From Candidatus Aminicenantes bacterium (lineage in GTDB: Bacteria; Acidobacteriota; Aminicenantia; Aminicenantales; UBA4085), in assembly GCA_026393855.1 (NCBI GenBank), contig JAPKZJ010000108.1, forward strand, positions 80,600 through 112,962: 32,363 bases of DNA, given 5' to 3'. Shown here in pieces: positions 16,715 to 25,784 of the stretch. Position numbers and translations under genes: made by a program. The notes under the pieces are model-generated. The model made no database searches. It was not told the DNA's origin and was given only the letters and a program-made list of their open reading frames with translations. Position 1 is the first letter of the stretch; each line of letters begins with the position of its first letter.

Positions 16715-19700
16715 ATGACTCCCCCGCTCCCGACTCTCCCGTCGATCCGTGTCCGCGGCGCCCGCCAGAACAACCTGCGTTCGCTGGACACGGACATCCC
16801 CCACGACCGCTTGACGGTCGTCACCGGCGTCTCGGGGTCGGGCAAGTCGTCGCTGGCCTTCGACGTCGTCTTCCGGGAGGCCCAGCGCCGCTATCTGGAG
16901 TCCTTCTCCGCCTCGGCCCGGCTGGTCATGGGCAAGCTCCTGCGGCCGGAAGTGGATCACATCGACGGGCTCCGCCCCGCCGTCGCGGTCTCCCAGCGGA
17001 CGACAGCGTCCGGCCCCCGTTCGACGGTCGGCACCCTGACCGAGCTCCTCGATCTGCTGCGGCTCCTGATGGCCCGGATCGGCCGGCCGCCCGCCGGATT
17101 CCCCCTGAAGCTCGAGCGGAGCCTGTTCTCCTTCAACTCCCCCCGGGGCGCCTGCCCGGCTTGCCGCGGATTGGGGGTCGAGGACGCCATCGATCCCGGC
17201 CTGATCATCGCCGACCCGGCCAAGACCATCCGGCAGGGAGCCTTGGCGTTGACGACCCCGGCTGGTTATATCATCTACAGCCAGGTGACGATGGACGTCC
17301 TCGACGTCGTCTGCCGGGCCCACGGCTTCGACGTCGATACACCCTGGCAGAACCTGGACGAAGAGGCCCGCCGGATCGTGCTGCACGGCTCGGATCGGGT
17401 CCGTATCCCTTTCGGCAAGCATCCCTTAGAATCCAGGCTGCGCTGGACGGGGATTACGGCCCGCCCCAGGCAAGAAGGAACGTACAAAGGCATCCTGCCG
17501 GTCATGGAGGCCATTCTCCGGACCAAGCGAAACGACGGCATCCTGCGCTATGCCCGGACGATGCCTTGCGCCGCTTGCGCGGGCCGACGCCTCCGGCCCG
17601 AAGCCCTCCAGGTTCTTTTCCGGGGTCGTTCGATCGCCGATTGGACCCGCCTGACGATTGGCCGGTTGGCGGCGGACTTCCAAGGCCTGACCTTCGAACC
17701 GGGCGAGGCCGCGGCCGGCGAGGCCGTGCAGCGCGCGTTGATCGAACGGGCCGCAATCCTCCTCCGGCTCGGCCTGGGCCATCTCGCCCTGGACCGGCCG
17801 TCGTCCACCCTGTCGGGCGGAGAGGCGCAAAGAATCCGCCTGGCCGGCCGGGCCGGGAGCGGACTGCGCGGCGTGCTCTACGTGCTGGACGAGCCCACCG
17901 CCGGACTTCATCCGTCCGAGACGGCACGGCTGGTCGACGTCCTGTGGACTCTGCGCGACGCCGGCAATACCGTGCTCGTCGTCGAGCACGACGAGGACGT
18001 CATCCGGGCCGCCGATCACGTCATCGAGCTCGGGCCCGGGCCCGGACCCGCGGGCGGAACCGTCGTGTTCGCCGGCCCGCCCGGCGAAAGGCCCCTCGCC
18101 GTCGCGGCTACCGGGTTCGCGCCGACGCGGCCCGGGACCGGCGCCCTGATCGTCCGCAACGCCCGCCTGCGCAATCTGCGCTCGGTCACGGCGGAGCTCC
18201 TGACCGGCGCCCTCAACGCGGTCTGCGGGCCGGCCGGGTCGGGAAAATCCACCCTCGTCCGTGAGGTCCTGGCCGCCCGCCTGCGGACCGGCGCTTTCGG
18301 GCCGGGCCTGGATGCCGACGGTGTGGACGTCCCCTTCCCCCGCTTCCGGCTCATCGAGATCGACCAGACGCCGATTGGACGGACGCCGCGCTCCAATCCC
18401 GCTACATACACGGGAGTCTCGGACCGGATCCGGGATCTTTTCGCGGCCTCGCCGGAGGCGGTCGCCCGCGGCTTCGGGCGCGGCCGCTTCTCCTTCAACA
18501 CCCCCGGCGGCCGCTGCGAGCGATGCCTGGGCGCCGGCTGGGAATCGGTGGGCATGCATTTCCTGGGCGACGTGGACGTTCCCTGCCCGGCCTGCGAAAC
18601 GCGCCGCTTCAATCCGGCGACCCTCGAAGTCAAAGTCCGCGGCCGGGACATCCACGAAGTCCTGGAGATGACGGTCGACGAAGCCGCCGTCTTCTTCCCC
18701 GAGCCCGAGCGGCTCTCCCGCGACCTCGGCTGGATGTCGCGCCTGGGCCTGGGATATCTCAAGCTCGGGCAAAGCTCCACCACCCTGTCCGGCGGCGAAG
18801 CCCAGCGGGTCCGGCTGGCCGCGGAGCTGATGCGCCCCGAAACCGGGACCATGATCTTCCTCCTCGAGGAGCCGACGACGGGCCTCCACCGGCGGGATAC
18901 AGACGCGCTGCTGACCGCCCTGGACGATCTCGTCCGCCGCGGGCACACCGTCATAGCCATCGAGAACGATCCCTGGTTCTTGAAGTCCGTCGATCGGCTG
19001 ATCGAGCTGGGGCCAGGATCGGGCCCGGACGGCGGATCAATCGTCTTCGCCGGCCGGCCGGCGGACGCGGCCTGCCGGGCCGATTCGCCCATAGGCCGAT
19101 CGCTGGCCGGCCTGTTCGCGGCACCGAAGGACGCGCCTCGGCCGATAGCCCCGCGCCGCACGAAATCGGTCCGGACCGAGACGGCCCGGGAGCCGATCTG
19201 CCTGACCGGCGTCACCACGCATAACCTGCGCTCGATCCGGGCGGAATTCCCGTTCGAGAAGCTGACGGTCGTCGCCGGGCCCTCGGGAAGCGGCAAATCG
19301 TCGCTGGCCTTCGACACCCTGTTCGCCGAATCCCGGCGCTGCTTCCTGGAGAGCTTTTCGACCTATGTCCGGGACCGCCTGGATCCCGGCGAAAAAGCCG
19401 ATTTCGAATCGGCCCGGGGATTGACGCCGCCCCTGGCCGTGGGCCCCCGGACGGCCGGACGCCATCCGCGGTCCACGGTGGGAACGATGACCGAGATCCA
19501 CGACTACGCCCGGCTGCTTTATTCGCGGGCGGGCCGGGACGAAGCGGGGAACGAACCGCCCGGGCTGTCGGCGGCGCATTTCTCCTTCAACACCGAGGAG
19601 GGCGCCTGCCCCTGCTGCGGCGGCCTCGGCCGGCTCGCGGCCGCCGACCCGGAAGCTTTGATCACCGACCCCGCAAAGCCGCTCGTCGACGGGGCTATGA

Positions 19701-21631
19701 ACGGGACGAAGACTGGACGCTTTTATGGCGATCCCTTCGGCCGCCATATCGCCGCGCTGAAGGCCGCCGGTATGGCCGCCGGAATAGATTTCAGCCTCCC
19801 CTACCAGGCGCTCAGCCCGGAAGCCCGGCGCTTGGCTTTTCGAGGCACGGACGATACCGTTTATGACATCGTCTGGTCCTATAAGCGCGGAAATCGCCAG
19901 GGCGATTTTAATTTCCGCGGCCCCTGGCCGGGATTCGCCGGCTTGATCGAGGAGGAATACGCCCGCAAGCACGGGGATTCGCGCGGCGAATCCCTGAAGA
20001 TGTTCCTGCAAAACGCCCCCTGCCCGGAATGCGGCGGCCGCCGGTTGAAACGAGAAGCCCTAGCGGTGACCTTCGGCGGACTCTCCCTGCCCGGGTTCAG
20101 CGCTTTAAGCATCGAGGACGCCGAAGCCCGGCTTTCCGAAAATGAAGTCCTCGATACGCTGGGACCGAAAGCCCGCGCGGCTGCCGAAGCCCTTTGGCCC
20201 GAGATTCTCCGCCGCCTGGGACTTCTGCGGCAGGTCGGCCTGGGCTATCTGTCGCTCGACCGGCGAGCCGAGACTCTATCCGGCGGAGAGCATCAGCGCC
20301 TCCGCCTGGCCTCCCTTTGGGGCGCCCGGCTGACGGGCGTCACCTTCGTGCTCGACGAGCCGACCCGGGGACTCCACGCCCGCGATACCGAGCGCCTGAT
20401 CAGCTCGCTCCGCGGGCTGGTCGGGGCGCGCAACACCGTCGTGGTCGTTGAACACGACCTCGACGTCATCTCGGCGGCCGATCAGGTCATCGAGCTCGGT
20501 CCCGGGGCGGGCAAGGCCGGCGGGCTCATCACGGCGCAGGGCTCGCCCGCCGCTCTGCGAGCCGATCCCGCCTCCTCCACCGGACACGCTTTGCGGTCGG
20601 CCGGGAATCGTCCGGCTCCCCTGCCGGCCGATCCGGCGCCCGGGTTGATCGTTCGCGGCGCCCGGGCCAACAACCTGCACAGGATCGACGTCGAGATACC
20701 GGCCCGGGCCCTGACCGTCGTCAGCGGCGTCTCCGGCAGCGGCAAATCCAGCTTGGTCAAAGGCGTCCTGCTTGCGACCGCCGAGGCCGGGCGGCCCATC
20801 GAGTGTCTCTCCGTCGAAGGCTTGTCCCGGTACGCTCAAGTCGTTTCCGTGGGCCAGGAGCCTCTCGGCGCAAGTCCGCTGGCCACGGCGGCCACCTATT
20901 TGCGGGTCTTCGACCAGATCCGCGGCCTGTTCGCGGAGACAGATGACGCGAGGCGCCTGGGCTTGGGCAAGAGGCATTTTTCCTACCTCACCGCCGCCGG
21001 ACGCTGTCCCGCGTGCGAAGGCTCGGGGGTCATCAGGCCGGGACTCGATTTTCTGGCCGAGACGGAAGCGATCTGCCCTTCCTGCGCAGGCCTGCGCTAT
21101 CGGCCGGAGGTCCTCGAAGCCCGATGCCAAGGGCTTACGATCGCCGACGTCCTGGCGCTGCCCCTTGAGAAGGCCGGCCTCGTTTTTGAGGATCGGCTTG
21201 TGCGGGACGCCGTCCGGGCGGCCGGGGAAACGGGGCTGGGATACCTGCAGCTCGGCCGGACGCTGGACACGCTCTCGGACGGAGAGGCCCAGCGGCTGAG
21301 GTTGACGGAGGCGCTCATGAAGCCTTCCCCCGGCGAGACTCTTTATCTTTTCGACGAGCCCACGGCCGGACTTCAGGCGGCGGAAGTCGAGGGGTTGGCG
21401 AGAATTTTCGCCGGGTTACTTGGCCGAGGCCATACCCTGGTTGCCGTCGAGCACGACTTGGACCTTATCGCCAGGGCTTATCGGATCATCGATCTGGGCC
21501 CGGAGGGCGGGAACGCGGGCGGCCGGATCGTCGCCATCGGCACGCCCTCGGAAGTGGCGGCCGCGGCAGACTCGGCCACCGGAGCTGCCTTGCGGCGTCG
21601 ATTCGGGTACGGTCAGAACGCGCCCAATTGA
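16715..21631 (+). CDS. Fused double UvrA-like ABC ATPase, no UvrB-binding domains
   Basis: A 1638-residue protein with four ABC modules, equal to two UvrA chains in tandem (ordinary UvrA is about 940 residues). Walker A loops are at 38-45, 505-512, 855-862 and 1338-1345. Signatures are at 366-370, 691-695 and 1188-1192 (LSGGE) and at 1520-1524 (LSDGE). Walker B acids are Asp392-Glu393, Glu718-Glu719 (Asp replaced by Glu), Asp1214-Glu1215 and Asp1547-Glu1548. The DNA-contacting zinc modules C-x2-C-x19-C-x2-C begin at Cys601 and Cys1431. In both halves only about 100 residues separate Walker A from FSFNxxxGAC (138 and 956), against about 230 in E. coli UvrA, so the UvrB-binding domain is missing. 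It may act as a UvrA2-type DNA or drug-adduct protein rather than in UvrB loading. Confidence 0.9.
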   Translation: MTPPLPTLPSIRVRGARQNNLRSLDTDIPHDRLTVVTGVSGSGKSSLAFDVVFREAQRRYLESFSASARLVMGKLLRPEVDHIDGLRPAVAVSQRTTASGPRSTVGTLTELLDLLRLLMARIGRPPAGFPLKLERSLFSFNSPRGACPACRGLGVEDAIDPGLIIADPAKTIRQGALALTTPAGYIIYSQVTMDVLDVVCRAHGFDVDTPWQNLDEEARRIVLHGSDRVRIPFGKHPLESRLRWTGITARPRQEGTYKGILPVMEAILRTKRNDGILRYARTMPCAACAGRRLRPEALQVLFRGRSIADWTRLTIGRLAADFQGLTFEPGEAAAGEAVQRALIERAAILLRLGLGHLALDRPSSTLSGGEAQRIRLAGRAGSGLRGVLYVLDEPTAGLHPSETARLVDVLWTLRDAGNTVLVVEHDEDVIRAADHVIELGPGPGPAGGTVVFAGPPGERPLAVAATGFAPTRPGTGALIVRNARLRNLRSVTAELLTGALNAVCGPAGSGKSTLVREVLAARLRTGAFGPGLDADGVDVPFPRFRLIEIDQTPIGRTPRSNPATYTGVSDRIRDLFAASPEAVARGFGRGRFSFNTPGGRCERCLGAGWESVGMHFLGDVDVPCPACETRRFNPATLEVKVRGRDIHEVLEMTVDEAAVFFPEPERLSRDLGWMSRLGLGYLKLGQSSTTLSGGEAQRVRLAAELMRPETGTMIFLLEEPTTGLHRRDTDALLTALDDLVRRGHTVIAIENDPWFLKSVDRLIELGPGSGPDGGSIVFAGRPADAACRADSPIGRSLAGLFAAPKDAPRPIAPRRTKSVRTETAREPICLTGVTTHNLRSIRAEFPFEKLTVVAGPSGSGKSSLAFDTLFAESRRCFLESFSTYVRDRLDPGEKADFESARGLTPPLAVGPRTAGRHPRSTVGTMTEIHDYARLLYSRAGRDEAGNEPPGLSAAHFSFNTEEGACPCCGGLGRLAAADPEALITDPAKPLVDGAMNGTKTGRFYGDPFGRHIAALKAAGMAAGIDFSLPYQALSPEARRLAFRGTDDTVYDIVWSYKRGNRQGDFNFRGPWPGFAGLIEEEYARKHGDSRGESLKMFLQNAPCPECGGRRLKREALAVTFGGLSLPGFSALSIEDAEARLSENEVLDTLGPKARAAAEALWPEILRRLGLLRQVGLGYLSLDRRAETLSGGEHQRLRLASLWGARLTGVTFVLDEPTRGLHARDTERLISSLRGLVGARNTVVVVEHDLDVISAADQVIELGPGAGKAGGLITAQGSPAALRADPASSTGHALRSAGNRPAPLPADPAPGLIVRGARANNLHRIDVEIPARALTVVSGVSGSGKSSLVKGVLLATAEAGRPIECLSVEGLSRYAQVVSVGQEPLGASPLATAATYLRVFDQIRGLFAETDDARRLGLGKRHFSYLTAAGRCPACEGSGVIRPGLDFLAETEAICPSCAGLRYRPEVLEARCQGLTIADVLALPLEKAGLVFEDRLVRDAVRAAGETGLGYLQLGRTLDTLSDGEAQRLRLTEALMKPSPGETLYLFDEPTAGLQAAEVEGLARIFAGLLGRGHTLVAVEHDLDLIARAYRIIDLGPEGGNAGGRIVAIGTPSEVAAAADSATGAALRRRFGYGQNAPN

Positions 21632-22047
21632 CAGTGCCGGATGGGGACGCCCAACGAGTCGGCGACATAGCCAGCCTGGATGCGGTCGACGCCGAACCGT
21701 TCGGCTTCCCGCCAGATCGCCAGGCACGACAGATCGCCGCGGCCGTCGCGTGCCGCGAGCAGCGCTTCCTTCAAGCCGGAGGGGATGGGACGCTCGGTAG
21801 CGCCGGCGGCGGCCCAACCCTTGGCATGCCCAGGGAAGCCGAACAGGCCGAGCTGGCAGCGGGTCAGACGGATGGCCAGCGCGTCGGCCGTGCGCCCGAC
21901 GTCGCCCGGGCCGACTCCCAAGCGCCCCGCGGCGTCGAAAGCGGCCTGACAAGGCAACAGCCCGCTTTCCAGGCGGCCGCGAAAGTCAGCAGCGATCGCC
22001 GGATCGGCCGTCAAGTCGGGAGGTAGCTTTTTATCGTCGAGGGCCAT
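21613..22047 (-). CDS. Twin-repeat CQLG protein, possible Mo/W-linked regulator
   Basis: A 144-residue protein of no family I can name. It contains two copies of one about 40-residue unit (about 31-70 and 106-144): LPCQAAFDAAGRLGV then VGRTADAL, ending RCQLGLFG, and LSCLAIWREAERFGV then AGYVADSL, ending HCQLGAF. Each unit has cysteines at matching places (33/64 and 108/139) and a helix-turn-helix-like centre. Four cysteines suggest metal binding or redox sensing. AAGGAGA precedes the ATG, and a near-consensus promoter lies above it. It is divergent from the riboswitch-led transporter, with an inverted repeat between, so regulation of that transporter is a plausible but unproven role. Its 3' end overlaps the uvrA-like gene by 19 bp. 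Confidence 0.8.
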   Translation of the reverse strand: MALDDKKLPPDLTADPAIAADFRGRLESGLLPCQAAFDAAGRLGVGPGDVGRTADALAIRLTRCQLGLFGFPGHAKGWAAAGATERPIPSGLKEALLAARDGRGDLSCLAIWREAERFGVDRIQAGYVADSLGVPIRHCQLGAF

Positions 22048-22066
22048 GGAAGTCTCCTTGCCCCCT

Positions 22067-22189: not shown

Positions 22190-22198
22190 TGCTATAAT
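22190..22198 (+). promoter_or_regulatory. Extended -10 promoter of the transporter operon
   Basis: TGCTATAAT, a perfect extended -10. No good -35 is found at 16-18 bp, consistent with an activated promoter. The transcription start is predicted near 22205, exactly where the riboswitch-like fold begins. Confidence 0.75.
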
Positions 22199-22204
22199 AC
22201 AGCC

Positions 22205-22320
22205 TGTTCTCCGACCCGCGCGTCCTAAAGGCGAACCCAAGGCGCCCGGGCGAAGCGCCGGCTTCGGCCGGCCAAGGCCTGGAGGGAAACGTCCCGGCCT
22301 CCCGCATCGGAAAGGAGACA
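22205..22320 (+). ncRNA. Moco (molybdenum/tungsten cofactor) riboswitch candidate
   Basis: The 116-nt leader between promoter and ATG has the layout of the Moco RNA motif. The 5' end TGTTCTCC (22205-22212) pairs with GGAGACA (22314-22320), one T bulged, and CGA pairs with TCG next to it. Two hairpins follow: a GCCGGC stem with a TTCG tetraloop (22257-22272), and AGGCC/GGCCT enclosing GGGA/TCCC (22275-22300). After that hairpin comes GCCTCCCGCATCGGAAAGG (22298-22315), almost the same as the 3' part of the E. coli moaA leader as I remember it. The Shine-Dalgarno AAGGAG is inside the closing stem, so ligand binding should block translation. A variant answering tungsten cofactor is possible. Confidence 0.7.
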
Positions 22321-22322
22321 TC

Positions 22323-23429
22323 ATGCCGATCAAGACGATGCGCCGGATCGCCGGCGCGGCAGCCATCCTGGGAGCGTCCCTGGCGCTCCTTCCCGTCGCC
22401 GGGCACGCGAGCGCCATCGGCCAATCGCCCCTCGCCTTCACCGATGCGGCTGGACGCCAAGTCAAGCTGGCCGGCCCTCCCCGCCGGATCGTGGTCATCG
22501 GCGACGGCCCCTACATTCTGGCTCATCTGCTGTATATGTTTCCCGAGGGCCGGGCCCGGATGATCGCCATGGAGAGGAAAGGACGAACGGCCAGCGAATT
22601 CCTTCCGCTCGTCGATCCCGAATTCGCCAAGAAGACGTTCCTCGATCCCAACCCTGGCCCGGAACAGATCGCGGGGCTCCATCCCGACCTCGTCCTGACC
22701 CGCGGCTCCGTTCCCGATCCCAAGGCCGAATCGCTGGCCGCGATCGGCATCCCGGTCGCCCAGCTCGGCCTGGAAACCCCGGCCGAGTACGAGCGCGACT
22801 TGAAGACGCTCGGCCTCCTGCTCGACAATCCCAAACGGGCTGAAGAGATCGCAGCCTACTACCGGGGCCGGCGGACGGCCGTCGAATCCGGTCTGGCCGG
22901 CCTCGCCGACGCGGCTAAGCCGCGCGTTCTCCTGGCCATGGCCATCGCCCGGGCCGGCAAAGTCGCCGTTCAAGTGCCGGCCCGCAGCTGGATGCAGACG
23001 CTTCAAGTTCAGGCTGGGGGGGGGCTCCCGGTCTGGCTCGATTCCGCCCATCCGGCAACCGGCTGGACGGTCATCAATCTGGAACAGATCGCGGCCTGGA
23101 ATCCGGACCAGATCTATATCGTCTTCTGGCATTCCATGGATCCCGGCAAGGCCTTGGAAGACTTCAAGGCCGATTCGCGCTGGGCGGCCTTGAAGGCCGT
23201 TCGGGTAGGCCGCTTGATGGCTTTCCCCGCCGACATCTACGGCTGGGACACGCCGGATCCGCGCTGGATTCTCGGCCTGACCTGGCTGGCCGCTCGGATT
23301 CATCCGGATAAATTCCCAAGCTATGATGCCGGCGCCGAAATGGACCTCTTCTACGGCACTCTCTACGGGATGAATCACGCGGAGGTGGAAGCCAAGATCA
23401 AGCCCGCGGTCAAGACGGATCTGCGCTGA
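22323..23429 (+). CDS. ABC transporter substrate-binding protein (FecB/BtuF/MolA type)
   Basis: A 368-residue periplasmic binding protein of the helical-backbone (TroA/BtuF) class. A signal peptide (about 1-30) is followed by FTDAAGRQVKL and RRIVVIGDGPYI, the standard opening. IAGLHPDLVL and INLEQIAAWNPDQIYIV, both typical of iron-siderophore, cobalamin and molybdate (MolA) binders, mark the two lobes. The Moco-like leader points to molybdate or tungstate as the cargo. The family alone would allow Fe-siderophore or B12. The ATG at 22323 sits right after the SD in the riboswitch stem; the open frame extends upstream only through the leader. It is the first gene of a three-gene operon. Confidence 0.9.
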   Translation: MPIKTMRRIAGAAAILGASLALLPVAGHASAIGQSPLAFTDAAGRQVKLAGPPRRIVVIGDGPYILAHLLYMFPEGRARMIAMERKGRTASEFLPLVDPEFAKKTFLDPNPGPEQIAGLHPDLVLTRGSVPDPKAESLAAIGIPVAQLGLETPAEYERDLKTLGLLLDNPKRAEEIAAYYRGRRTAVESGLAGLADAAKPRVLLAMAIARAGKVAVQVPARSWMQTLQVQAGGGLPVWLDSAHPATGWTVINLEQIAAWNPDQIYIVFWHSMDPGKALEDFKADSRWAALKAVRVGRLMAFPADIYGWDTPDPRWILGLTWLAARIHPDKFPSYDAGAEMDLFYGTLYGMNHAEVEAKIKPAVKTDLR

Positions 23430-23439
23430 AGGGGCCTGG

Positions 23440-24420
23440 ATGAAACGAGCGTTCGCGGTCCTGGCGGCGGGCCTTCTGATCGTCTTGGCCGTTTCCATGC
23501 TGCTGGGGCGCTATCCCGGGCCCGGCTTGAGCTCGCCGGCCGCCATCCTGCACGATCCGTTGGCGCTCGATCTCGTCGCCAGCCTCCGCCTGCCGCGCAT
23601 CGCCGCCGCCGTCCTGCTGGGCATGGTCCTTTCGGCCTCGGGGCTCGTCTTCCAAATGCTCTTTCGCAACCCGCTCGTCGACTCGGGATTCCTGGGCGTC
23701 TCCCAGGGCGCTGCCTTTGGCGCCTCGGCGGCGATCATCTTCGCCGCCGGCTCGGCGGCCGCCGTCCAGGCCGGCGCGGCTCTCTTTGCCTTCCTGGGAT
23801 TGGCCATGAGCTACGCCTTGTCGCGCCGGATCCGATTCGGCGGCGGCATCCTGCGTTTGGTCCTGGCCGGTATCGCCGTAGCTTCGCTCTTTTCGGCCGG
23901 CACGGGCATGCTCAAGTATCTGGCCGACCCGCATCGGCAACTGCCCGACATCACCTTTTGGATGCTCGGCGGGCTCTGGAACATCACCTGGCCGGACGTC
24001 CTGGAGATGCTGCCGGTCAGCCTGGCCGCCCTGACCCTGATGTTTCTGATGCGCTGGCGGCTGAACCTGCTGGCTTTGCTCGAAGAGACGGCCTTCTCAC
24101 TGGGGGCCGCGCCGCGGCGGGAGCGCCTCGTGCTTCTCATCGCCGCAGTCGCCGCGACCGCGGCCGTCGTGGCCAAAGCCGGACAGATCACATGGGTGGG
24201 CTTGGTCATCCCCCATATCGCGCGCCGCCTGGCCGGCTCCGACGCCCAGAAAGCCTTTCCCGTCTCTCTCGTCCTAGGCGGCCTCTTCGTCCTCGTCTGC
24301 GATGACCTTTCGCGCACCCTGCTCAGCGGCGAGATCCCGCTCGGCATCCTGACCTCGCTCTTCGGCACGGTCGCTTTCCTGATCCTGCTCATCAAGCAGC
24401 GCCCGGGAGTCCGCAATTGA
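23440..24420 (+). CDS. FecCD/BtuC-family permease (MolB-like)
   Basis: A 326-residue inner-membrane permease with about nine or ten hydrophobic spans. Family signatures are visible: SLRLPRIAAAVLLGMVLS then FRNPLVDSGFLGVSQGA, GQITWVGLVIPHIAR (the loop that docks with the ATPase), and GEIPLGILTSLFG near the C-terminus. It forms the channel for the substrate handed over by the binding protein. It starts 10 bp after the binding-protein gene and its stop codon overlaps the ATPase start. The MolB assignment rests on the leader; the fold is shared with siderophore and B12 importers. Confidence 0.92.
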   Translation: MKRAFAVLAAGLLIVLAVSMLLGRYPGPGLSSPAAILHDPLALDLVASLRLPRIAAAVLLGMVLSASGLVFQMLFRNPLVDSGFLGVSQGAAFGASAAIIFAAGSAAAVQAGAALFAFLGLAMSYALSRRIRFGGGILRLVLAGIAVASLFSAGTGMLKYLADPHRQLPDITFWMLGGLWNITWPDVLEMLPVSLAALTLMFLMRWRLNLLALLEETAFSLGAAPRRERLVLLIAAVAATAAVVAKAGQITWVGLVIPHIARRLAGSDAQKAFPVSLVLGGLFVLVCDDLSRTLLSGEIPLGILTSLFGTVAFLILLIKQRPGVRN

Positions 24421-25202
24421 ACCCGGCCGATCCGATCGTCGTCGTGGAAGGCGTCTCGTTCGCCTATGGGCCGGGCGCGCCGAGCGTCTTGTCCGGAGTG
24501 TCCTGGCGATTCCGCCGGTCCGCCGTAACGGCCTTGCTGGGTCCCAACGGATCCGGCAAGACGACCCTGCTGAATCTCATCCTGGGCTGGCTGACCCCGG
24601 CGAGCGGCCGCATCATGATCAACGGCCGGGAGCCGGCCTCGTCCACGCGGCGAGAGTGGAGCCGCCAGGTGGGCTTCGTCCCCCAGGACGAGGCTCCCGC
24701 CTTCGAGCTGGAGCTCGGGGAACACGTCCTGCTCGGGCGGGCTCCTCATCTGGCGCTGTTGGAAAGACCGGGCGAAGCCGACCGGGCCGCCGCCGCCGCC
24801 GCCTTGGAACGGACGGGGTTGACAGCGCTTCGAGATCGGGCCGTGCACGCCTTGAGCGGGGGCGAACGGCAGCTGGCCGCGATCGCCCGCGTCCTGGCCC
24901 AGGCTCCCGACGTCTATCTCCTGGACGAGCCCCTATCTCACCTCGACTTGGCCAACACCCGCCGGATTCTGAAGATTCTGGAGTCCATCCGGAAGGAGGG
25001 CCGGACCGTCATCCTGACCACACACGATCCCAATATCGCGGCGCTCGTAGCGGACGAAGCCATTCTCCTGCGCGGCGGCGAGATCGCGGCGGGGGGCCCT
25101 CCCGTCGATGTCTTGACTGAGGAACGGCTGGGGTTTGTTTACGGAGTCCCGGTCGACGTCCGCATGATCGAAGGCCGTCCGGTCGTCCTGCCGCGCCTTT
25201 AA
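24417..25202 (+). CDS. ABC transporter ATP-binding protein (FecE/BtuD/MolC-like)
   Basis: A 261-residue ATPase that powers the importer. Walker A GPNGSGKTT is at 42-50, the Q-loop Gln is 90 (FVPQDE), signature LSGGE is at 146-150, Walker B is Asp170-Glu171 (YLLDEP), and the switch His is 203 (TTHD), so the site is complete. The start is the TTG at 24417, which overlaps the permease stop as TTGA and has GGGAG at good spacing; no ATG exists before the first strand. The weak start may keep the subunit ratio down. It closes the operon; a short gap leads to the convergent hemerythrin gene. Confidence 0.93.
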   Translation: MNPADPIVVVEGVSFAYGPGAPSVLSGVSWRFRRSAVTALLGPNGSGKTTLLNLILGWLTPASGRIMINGREPASSTRREWSRQVGFVPQDEAPAFELELGEHVLLGRAPHLALLERPGEADRAAAAAALERTGLTALRDRAVHALSGGERQLAAIARVLAQAPDVYLLDEPLSHLDLANTRRILKILESIRKEGRTVILTTHDPNIAALVADEAILLRGGEIAAGGPPVDVLTEERLGFVYGVPVDVRMIEGRPVVLPRL

Positions 25203-25223: not shown

Positions 25224-25784
25224 TCAGGCCGGCGGATAGGCCGCTTCCAAATCGTCCAGGAGGCGGTGGAAGCGCTCGTGGCTCCCTCCCCCGATGATCT
25301 CGTCCTCGACCCGTTCGAACTCCTTCGACAGCCCGGCCTGGACGGACTTCGCCAGAAGCCGATCGGCCATGGGATAGAGGATGAAGTCCTCCTTGTCGAT
25401 GTGCGGGCCGAGGAGTGCGGCGTAGCCGCGAGCCTGGGCGACGAAGTCCGCCGCCGCCGCCCGATCCTTCCGCTTCAGCCCCGGTAGGGCGGCAGCGGCC
25501 TTCCGGACAAGCTCCCGCCCTCGCGTGTGCTCGGCTTTCATGACGCCGATCGGGCCGCCTTGATCGGGGACACCGGCGGCCACCATGGCCGGGAAGAGCA
25601 GGTCCTCTTCCTTGCCGTGGTGGCACTTGTCGGCAAAGACCCGGATAAATTCGACGGCGGCGTCCAGATGGGCCGGATCGACGGGGCTCCCGGCCTCGAT
25701 CCGAGCGCAAGCCCGGGTCAGGATGCCCAGCATACGCTTGATGGCCTGATGTTCAATTTTAAGCTCTTCGGTTGGTGTCGGCAT
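25224..25784 (-). CDS. Hemerythrin HHE-domain protein
   Basis: A 186-residue soluble four-helix protein with a di-iron site. Likely ligands are His12 (EHQAI), His55/His56 and Glu60 (CHHGKEED), His86 (AEHTRG), and His128 with Glu132 (HIDKED). Such bacterial proteins bind O2 or NO, or take part in oxygen sensing and iron-sulfur repair. It begins 12 bp after the cupin gene on the same strand, so the two are probably co-transcribed as a small stress or oxygen-handling operon. The C-terminal 45 residues extend past the last ligand as an additional helix pair. Confidence 0.92.
   Translation of the reverse strand: MPTPTEELKIEHQAIKRMLGILTRACARIEAGSPVDPAHLDAAVEFIRVFADKCHHGKEEDLLFPAMVAAGVPDQGGPIGVMKAEHTRGRELVRKAAAALPGLKRKDRAAAADFVAQARGYAALLGPHIDKEDFILYPMADRLLAKSVQAGLSKEFERVEDEIIGGGSHERFHRLLDDLEAAYPPA

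Follow-up and report, generated by a model that had tools for sequence, protein, structure and literature searches.

Two described systems come closest to the locus analysed here, one in regulation and one in transport. The Moco RNA of Regulski et al. 2008 has been described before moa operons, ModABC transporters and Mo enzymes, and that report associates P3-containing RNAs with Moco genes and P3-lacking RNAs with tungsten-cofactor genes, a rule that was itself a hypothesis of 2008 (PMC2408646). In the Escherichia coli moaA leader, the Shine-Dalgarno sequence lies within the closing stem P1. On the transport side, MolBCA of Haemophilus influenzae (HI1470-1472) is a type II importer with a class III substrate-binding protein (SBP), and its MolA binds molybdate and tungstate (PMC4031551). 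The same role would be served by TupABC, WtpABC and ModABC, which differ from the system described below in having unrelated permease and SBP families.

Our locus lies in a window of 32,363 nucleotides (the whole stretch of DNA that was analysed) from a Candidatus Aminicenantes genome, G000, and joins an RNA of the first kind to an operon of the second. Its features, all in window coordinates, are the following.

22190..22198, + strand: extended -10 promoter element TGCTATAAT (TG-n-TATAAT type), from the sequence
22197..22333, + strand: Moco RNA (RF01055), P3-containing subtype, from cmscan and the orthologous leaders
22209-22212, + strand: 5' strand of P1, CUCC, which pairs with the Shine-Dalgarno GGAG at 22314-22317
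22257..22272, + strand: P3 hairpin GCCGGC-UUCG-GCCGGC, from the leader fold
22309..22317, + strand: conserved GGAAAGGAG, 3' strand of the closing stem P1, containing the Shine-Dalgarno sequence, from cmscan and the fold
22323..23429, + strand: class III (Peripla_BP_2) SBP, 368 aa (PF01497, 63 bits), MolA-like by structure
23440..24420, + strand: FecCD/BtuC-type permease, 326 aa (PF01032, 250 bits)
24417..25202, + strand: ABC ATPase, 261 aa (PF00005, 117 bits), whose TTG start overlaps the permease stop

A cmscan of the whole window matched RF01055 at 22197-22333 (+) with 57.0 bits (E 2.5e-11; the gathering score is 36 bits) over model positions 1-135 of 135, and no other Rfam family came near its own cut-off. 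The original prediction had placed a Moco-type riboswitch at 22205-22320, which differs from the cmscan match only in lacking a few flank positions of the model; it had also seen the extended -10 before the leader, here TGCTATAAT, from which we predict a +1 near 22205, and a Shine-Dalgarno inside the pairing ends, which is the GGAG paired with CUCC in P1. Unconstrained folding of this single leader recovered P1, P2, P3, P4 and P5 in the arrangement of the family, and the leader has the GGAAAC loop and the 3' GGAAAGGAG conserved with them, so that the RNA of the 2008 report is matched in full model, P1-P5 and P3 subtype. Since GGAAAGGAG ends at 22317, the gap to the ATG at 22323 is five bases, and the Shine-Dalgarno, placed within P1 like that of the E. 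coli moaA leader, points to an expression platform acting by translational control. Folding energy alone was rejected as a sign of a structured leader: its z of -0.98 is unremarkable, and it is the covariance model that marks the structure. The evidence for a riboswitch is thus the covariance model together with conservation, with two-sided changes at 10 of the 31 alifold consensus pairs in an alignment of six leaders. Judged by sequence, the leader is a genuine Moco riboswitch.

The RNA and the operon have stayed together in related genomes. Among 396 genomes of the phylum, SBPs with >50% identity occur in G000 itself, in G312 of the same genus (55%) and in G256 of another family of the same order (51%), and RF01055 lies directly upstream in all three (57.0, 42.0 and 56.2 bits, respectively); three distant SBPs (28-32% identity) have no RF01055 directly upstream. 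A scan of public genomes for the homologous operon returned 22 loci, of which L126 (60.2 bits) and L130 (46.6 bits) in Aminicenantes and L129 (69.0 bits) in Chloroflexi also carry the RNA, while L127, with the same RNA, is apparently G312 again. This gives six operons with the RNA above the cut-off, five from Aminicenantes (G000 included) and one from Chloroflexi, and every close SBP homologue found in Aminicenantes has it directly upstream. The leader is therefore conserved in relatives with the same operon, five homologous leaders scoring above the cut-off, and both checks named with the original prediction (covariance-model hit and leader conservation) gave a positive result. A promoter precedes the same RNA in G312 (TGGTATAAT), L126 (TGATACAAT), L130 (TGATATAAT) and L129 (TTGACA-17-TATATT). 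The other homologous loci of Chloroflexota weigh against our reading, as RF01055 was not seen upstream of them, though several have short upstream flanks. A PadR-like regulator precedes the importer instead of the riboswitch in the Chloroflexota loci L135, L137, L140, L141 and L142 (PF03551 was tested in L135 and L142, the other three being called by eye).

The operon itself combines a BtuC/FecCD-type permease, a class III SBP and an ATPase, which is the architecture of MolBCA; its Peripla_BP_2 and FecCD proteins place it outside the ModABC, TupABC and WtpABC families. Every name proposed by the NCBIfam equivalogs is one for iron, haem or B12, and a routine pipeline would thus label the operon as iron or B12 uptake, just as the original prediction had supposed. 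We rejected the names BtuF, IsdE and FhuB because all matches fall far below the curated cut-offs: the SBP reaches at best 44 bits where 325 are needed, and the permease 163 bits with the FhuB model (cut-off 849) and 159 with BtuC (cut-off 461). The immediate surroundings hold a 145-aa ORF at 21613-22050, which matched no family in Pfam, and a hemerythrin-domain protein on the opposite strand directly 3' of the operon (25224-25784, -). At 16721-21631 (+) lies a UvrA-like protein with ABC and UvrA DNA-binding domains that, at 1636 aa, is far longer than usual UvrA, and such a long protein is found upstream of the operon in G312 too.

The comparison with solved transporters leans towards MolBCA to different degrees for the two proteins. 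The best solved sequence match of the permease is MolB (HI1471, 175 bits, the next reaching 143). For the SBP, an AlphaFold model (built from 19 relatives; pLDDT 85.6, pTM 0.81) has as tied top structural matches 4hn9 (Z 30.1), 4ovk (Z 29.6) and MolA (3psa, Z 29.5), the first two being orphans whose titles say no more than iron-ABC or periplasmic solute-binding protein; for the majority of siderophore, haem and B12 binders, Z is ~21-23. Two results weigh against our reading here: the iron-siderophore binder YiuA comes close (Z 28.7), and by sequence the SBP is closest to 4ovk, not to MolA, with which its identity is low (17%, structural). Hence, the fold that the modelled SBP has in common with MolA is no proof of the ligand, and orthology with MolBCA is without evidence; the operon differs from MolBCA, too, in standing under a Moco RNA. 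The automatic family names and YiuA would agree with an iron, haem or B12 importer of the usual kind that has come under Moco control, e.g. for the iron supply of Mo enzymes. We consider this highly improbable given how far below their cut-offs those names score, the sharing of the riboswitch slot with Mo/W importers and the recurrence of Mo/W genes next to the operon in another phylum. Its Chloroflexota homologues adjoin TupA, MoaA and MoaC (L143), the FAD subunit of a molybdopterin dehydrogenase, i.e. a Mo hydroxylase (L129), or, in L133, a GntR regulator that has a PBP_like domain. A homologous operon from a Syntrophaceae genome (L145) is near FmdE.

The position of the operon behind the riboswitch is informative across the phylum, where RF01055 occurs in 40 of 297 genomes with 55 copies. 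The genes behind it are moaA, moaC or moeA, TupA/WtpA-type transporters, TonB-dependent receptors and the FecBCD-type operon. In sister genomes the same slot is occupied by tupABC, wtpABC or modAB, and their leaders head tupABC-moeA-moaC-MOSC-moaA. TupA is present in 14 of the 24 genomes of the order and in none of the three with the FecBCD-type operon, an exclusion that is weak alone (Fisher P 0.06, the genomes being non-independent); one of these three, G312, moreover has modAB behind a further RF01055, which weighs against our reading. In G000, a 95% complete genome, a search for TupA, ModA, WtpA and MOT1 found none, and the FecBCD-type operon therefore appears to be the only dedicated Mo/W ABC importer found there. 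Three PF13531 hits in G000 were rejected as ModA or WtpA, as they belong to two PstS operons and a PotD-like protein, and those of G256 were rejected as PstS. The Mo/W enzymes of G000 comprise four AOR matches and six PF00384 matches (molybdopterin-type).

A number of arguments thus favour the original prediction of a molybdate or tungstate importer. First, the slot is common with tupABC, wtpABC and modAB. Second, no TupA, ModA, WtpA or MOT1 was found in the genome. Third, the genome encodes molybdopterin-type and AOR enzymes. Fourth, MolA is close in structure and MolB in sequence. The prediction gains in support without being proved. In our view, the operon is very probably a type II (BtuCD/MolBCA-type) molybdate importer, which may also take tungstate, under feedback from a P3-containing Moco riboswitch. 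By analogy with the E. coli moaA leader, plentiful Moco would make the aptamer close P1, hiding the Shine-Dalgarno sequence and repressing translation of the SBP; when Moco is low, P1 would open and the importer would be made. As the presumed ligand would hide the ribosome-binding site in this way, synthesis of the importer would be confined to times of cofactor shortage.

The choice between the two metals turns on the P3 helix. It is present in six of six leaders of the FecBCD-type operon and in one of 36 leaders of TonB-receptor, Tup, Wtp and Mod genes (Fisher 1.3e-6, with related genomes and with P3 scored by eye from folds and alignments), and in G312 a P3-lacking modAB leader occurs alongside a P3-containing leader of the FecBCD-type operon. 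The presence of P3 assigns the operon leaders to the Moco subtype and not to that of the tungsten cofactor, so that, as far as leader sequences can tell, a Moco signal and molybdate as cargo are favoured over tungstate. If the P3 rule were invalid in this phylum, tungstate could be the main cargo, destined for AOR-type enzymes: G000 has four AOR genes and no other W importer was found there, the slot is held in sister genomes by the tungstate transporters TupABC or WtpABC, and tungstate is, besides molybdate, a ligand of MolA (PMC4031551). We regard tungstate as the main cargo as rather unlikely, because P3, which marks Moco-linked genes in PMC2408646, is kept in all the operon leaders, because the tup and wtp leaders of the same order are without it, and because G312 has both types of leader.

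The second Moco RNA of G000 (63.2 bits) lacks P3 and immediately precedes a TonB-dependent receptor, with an AOR gene close by.

L003 6833-8889 (G000:C114:10835-12888), - strand: 646-aa TonB-dependent receptor with a P3-lacking Moco RNA

In the phylum, about 21 leaders form such a pair with a receptor, which suggests TonB-dependent acquisition of tungsten or molybdenum. A search of the open-access literature found neither a TonB receptor nor a FecBCD operon previously described under a Moco riboswitch; the reference list of PMC2408646 includes a FhuD structure paper, so that a siderophore-type neighbour may have been noticed in 2008. Other genes accompany the RNA or the receptor. Similar-looking membrane proteins of ~209-227 aa adjoin the TonB receptor in two genera (L003, 9001-9630, +, and L042, where it lies downstream of the receptor), the L003 copy giving no Pfam match. 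A probably secreted protein of ~340 aa with ENNDFYDN near its N terminus follows the receptor in L045, L044, L047, L048 and L054 and lies directly behind the Moco RNA in L056; the one copy tested gave no Pfam match. A P3-lacking Moco RNA directly precedes an NAD-type aldehyde dehydrogenase in L061 (by PF00171), L062, L068 and probably L082 (by eye). The enzyme may be a metal-independent isozyme expressed during shortage of the tungsten cofactor that AOR needs.

The receptor raises the question of whether importer and receptor handle the same substrate. Chelates are the usual cargo of FecBCD/BtuCD importers and of TonB receptors, and operon and receptor are both under Moco-type RNAs in G000, G256 and G312, which would suit a Mo/W-siderophore chelate passed on by the receptor to the importer. 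We find this improbable: MolBCA carries the free oxyanion, and the receptor is present too in genomes using TupABC while the importer is present in Chloroflexota relatives, which argues that the two are not tied together.

The synthesis of the cofactor bears on a further alternative. The MoaA C-terminal domain PF06463 was sought in G000, G312 and G256 and gave no match, despite the presence of AOR and PF00384 enzymes; this domain matches sister MoaA proteins well, and a short MoaA type found elsewhere in the class matches it weakly and could be missed. A tblastn search for MoaA, MoaC and MoeA that covered a quarter of the G000 genome (~0.9 Mb) gave only weak radical-SAM matches, which are not decisive. 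De novo Moco synthesis in these three genomes is therefore not demonstrated, which weighs against a molybdate importer: either the synthesis genes were missed or the cofactor is obtained otherwise. BtuCD importers usually carry cofactors or chelates, and with no MoaA domain found in the three genomes with the operon, the importer might carry a pterin (Moco, Tuco or a precursor) or a metal-chelate together with the TonB receptor, i.e. salvage a cofactor or molybdophore. Such salvage would concern genomes without the tup-moeA-moaC-moaA operon of their sisters, and we deem it quite improbable, as the operon beside moaA and moaC in L143 speaks against it.

Our analysis joins a riboswitch class and a transporter class that were both known, in a pairing that is new. 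The recurrent RNA-receptor pairs suggest a role of TonB-dependent receptors in Mo/W acquisition, on which the open-access papers searched gave no earlier report, and the distribution of P3 suggests that Mo and W uptake may be sorted by riboswitch subtype inside one genome. By default, annotation calls a FecBCD-type importer iron or B12 uptake, and a cofactor riboswitch offers a clue to the substrate beyond sequence similarity. With this clue, an operon family of Aminicenantes and Chloroflexota would be re-assigned to molybdenum or tungsten uptake.
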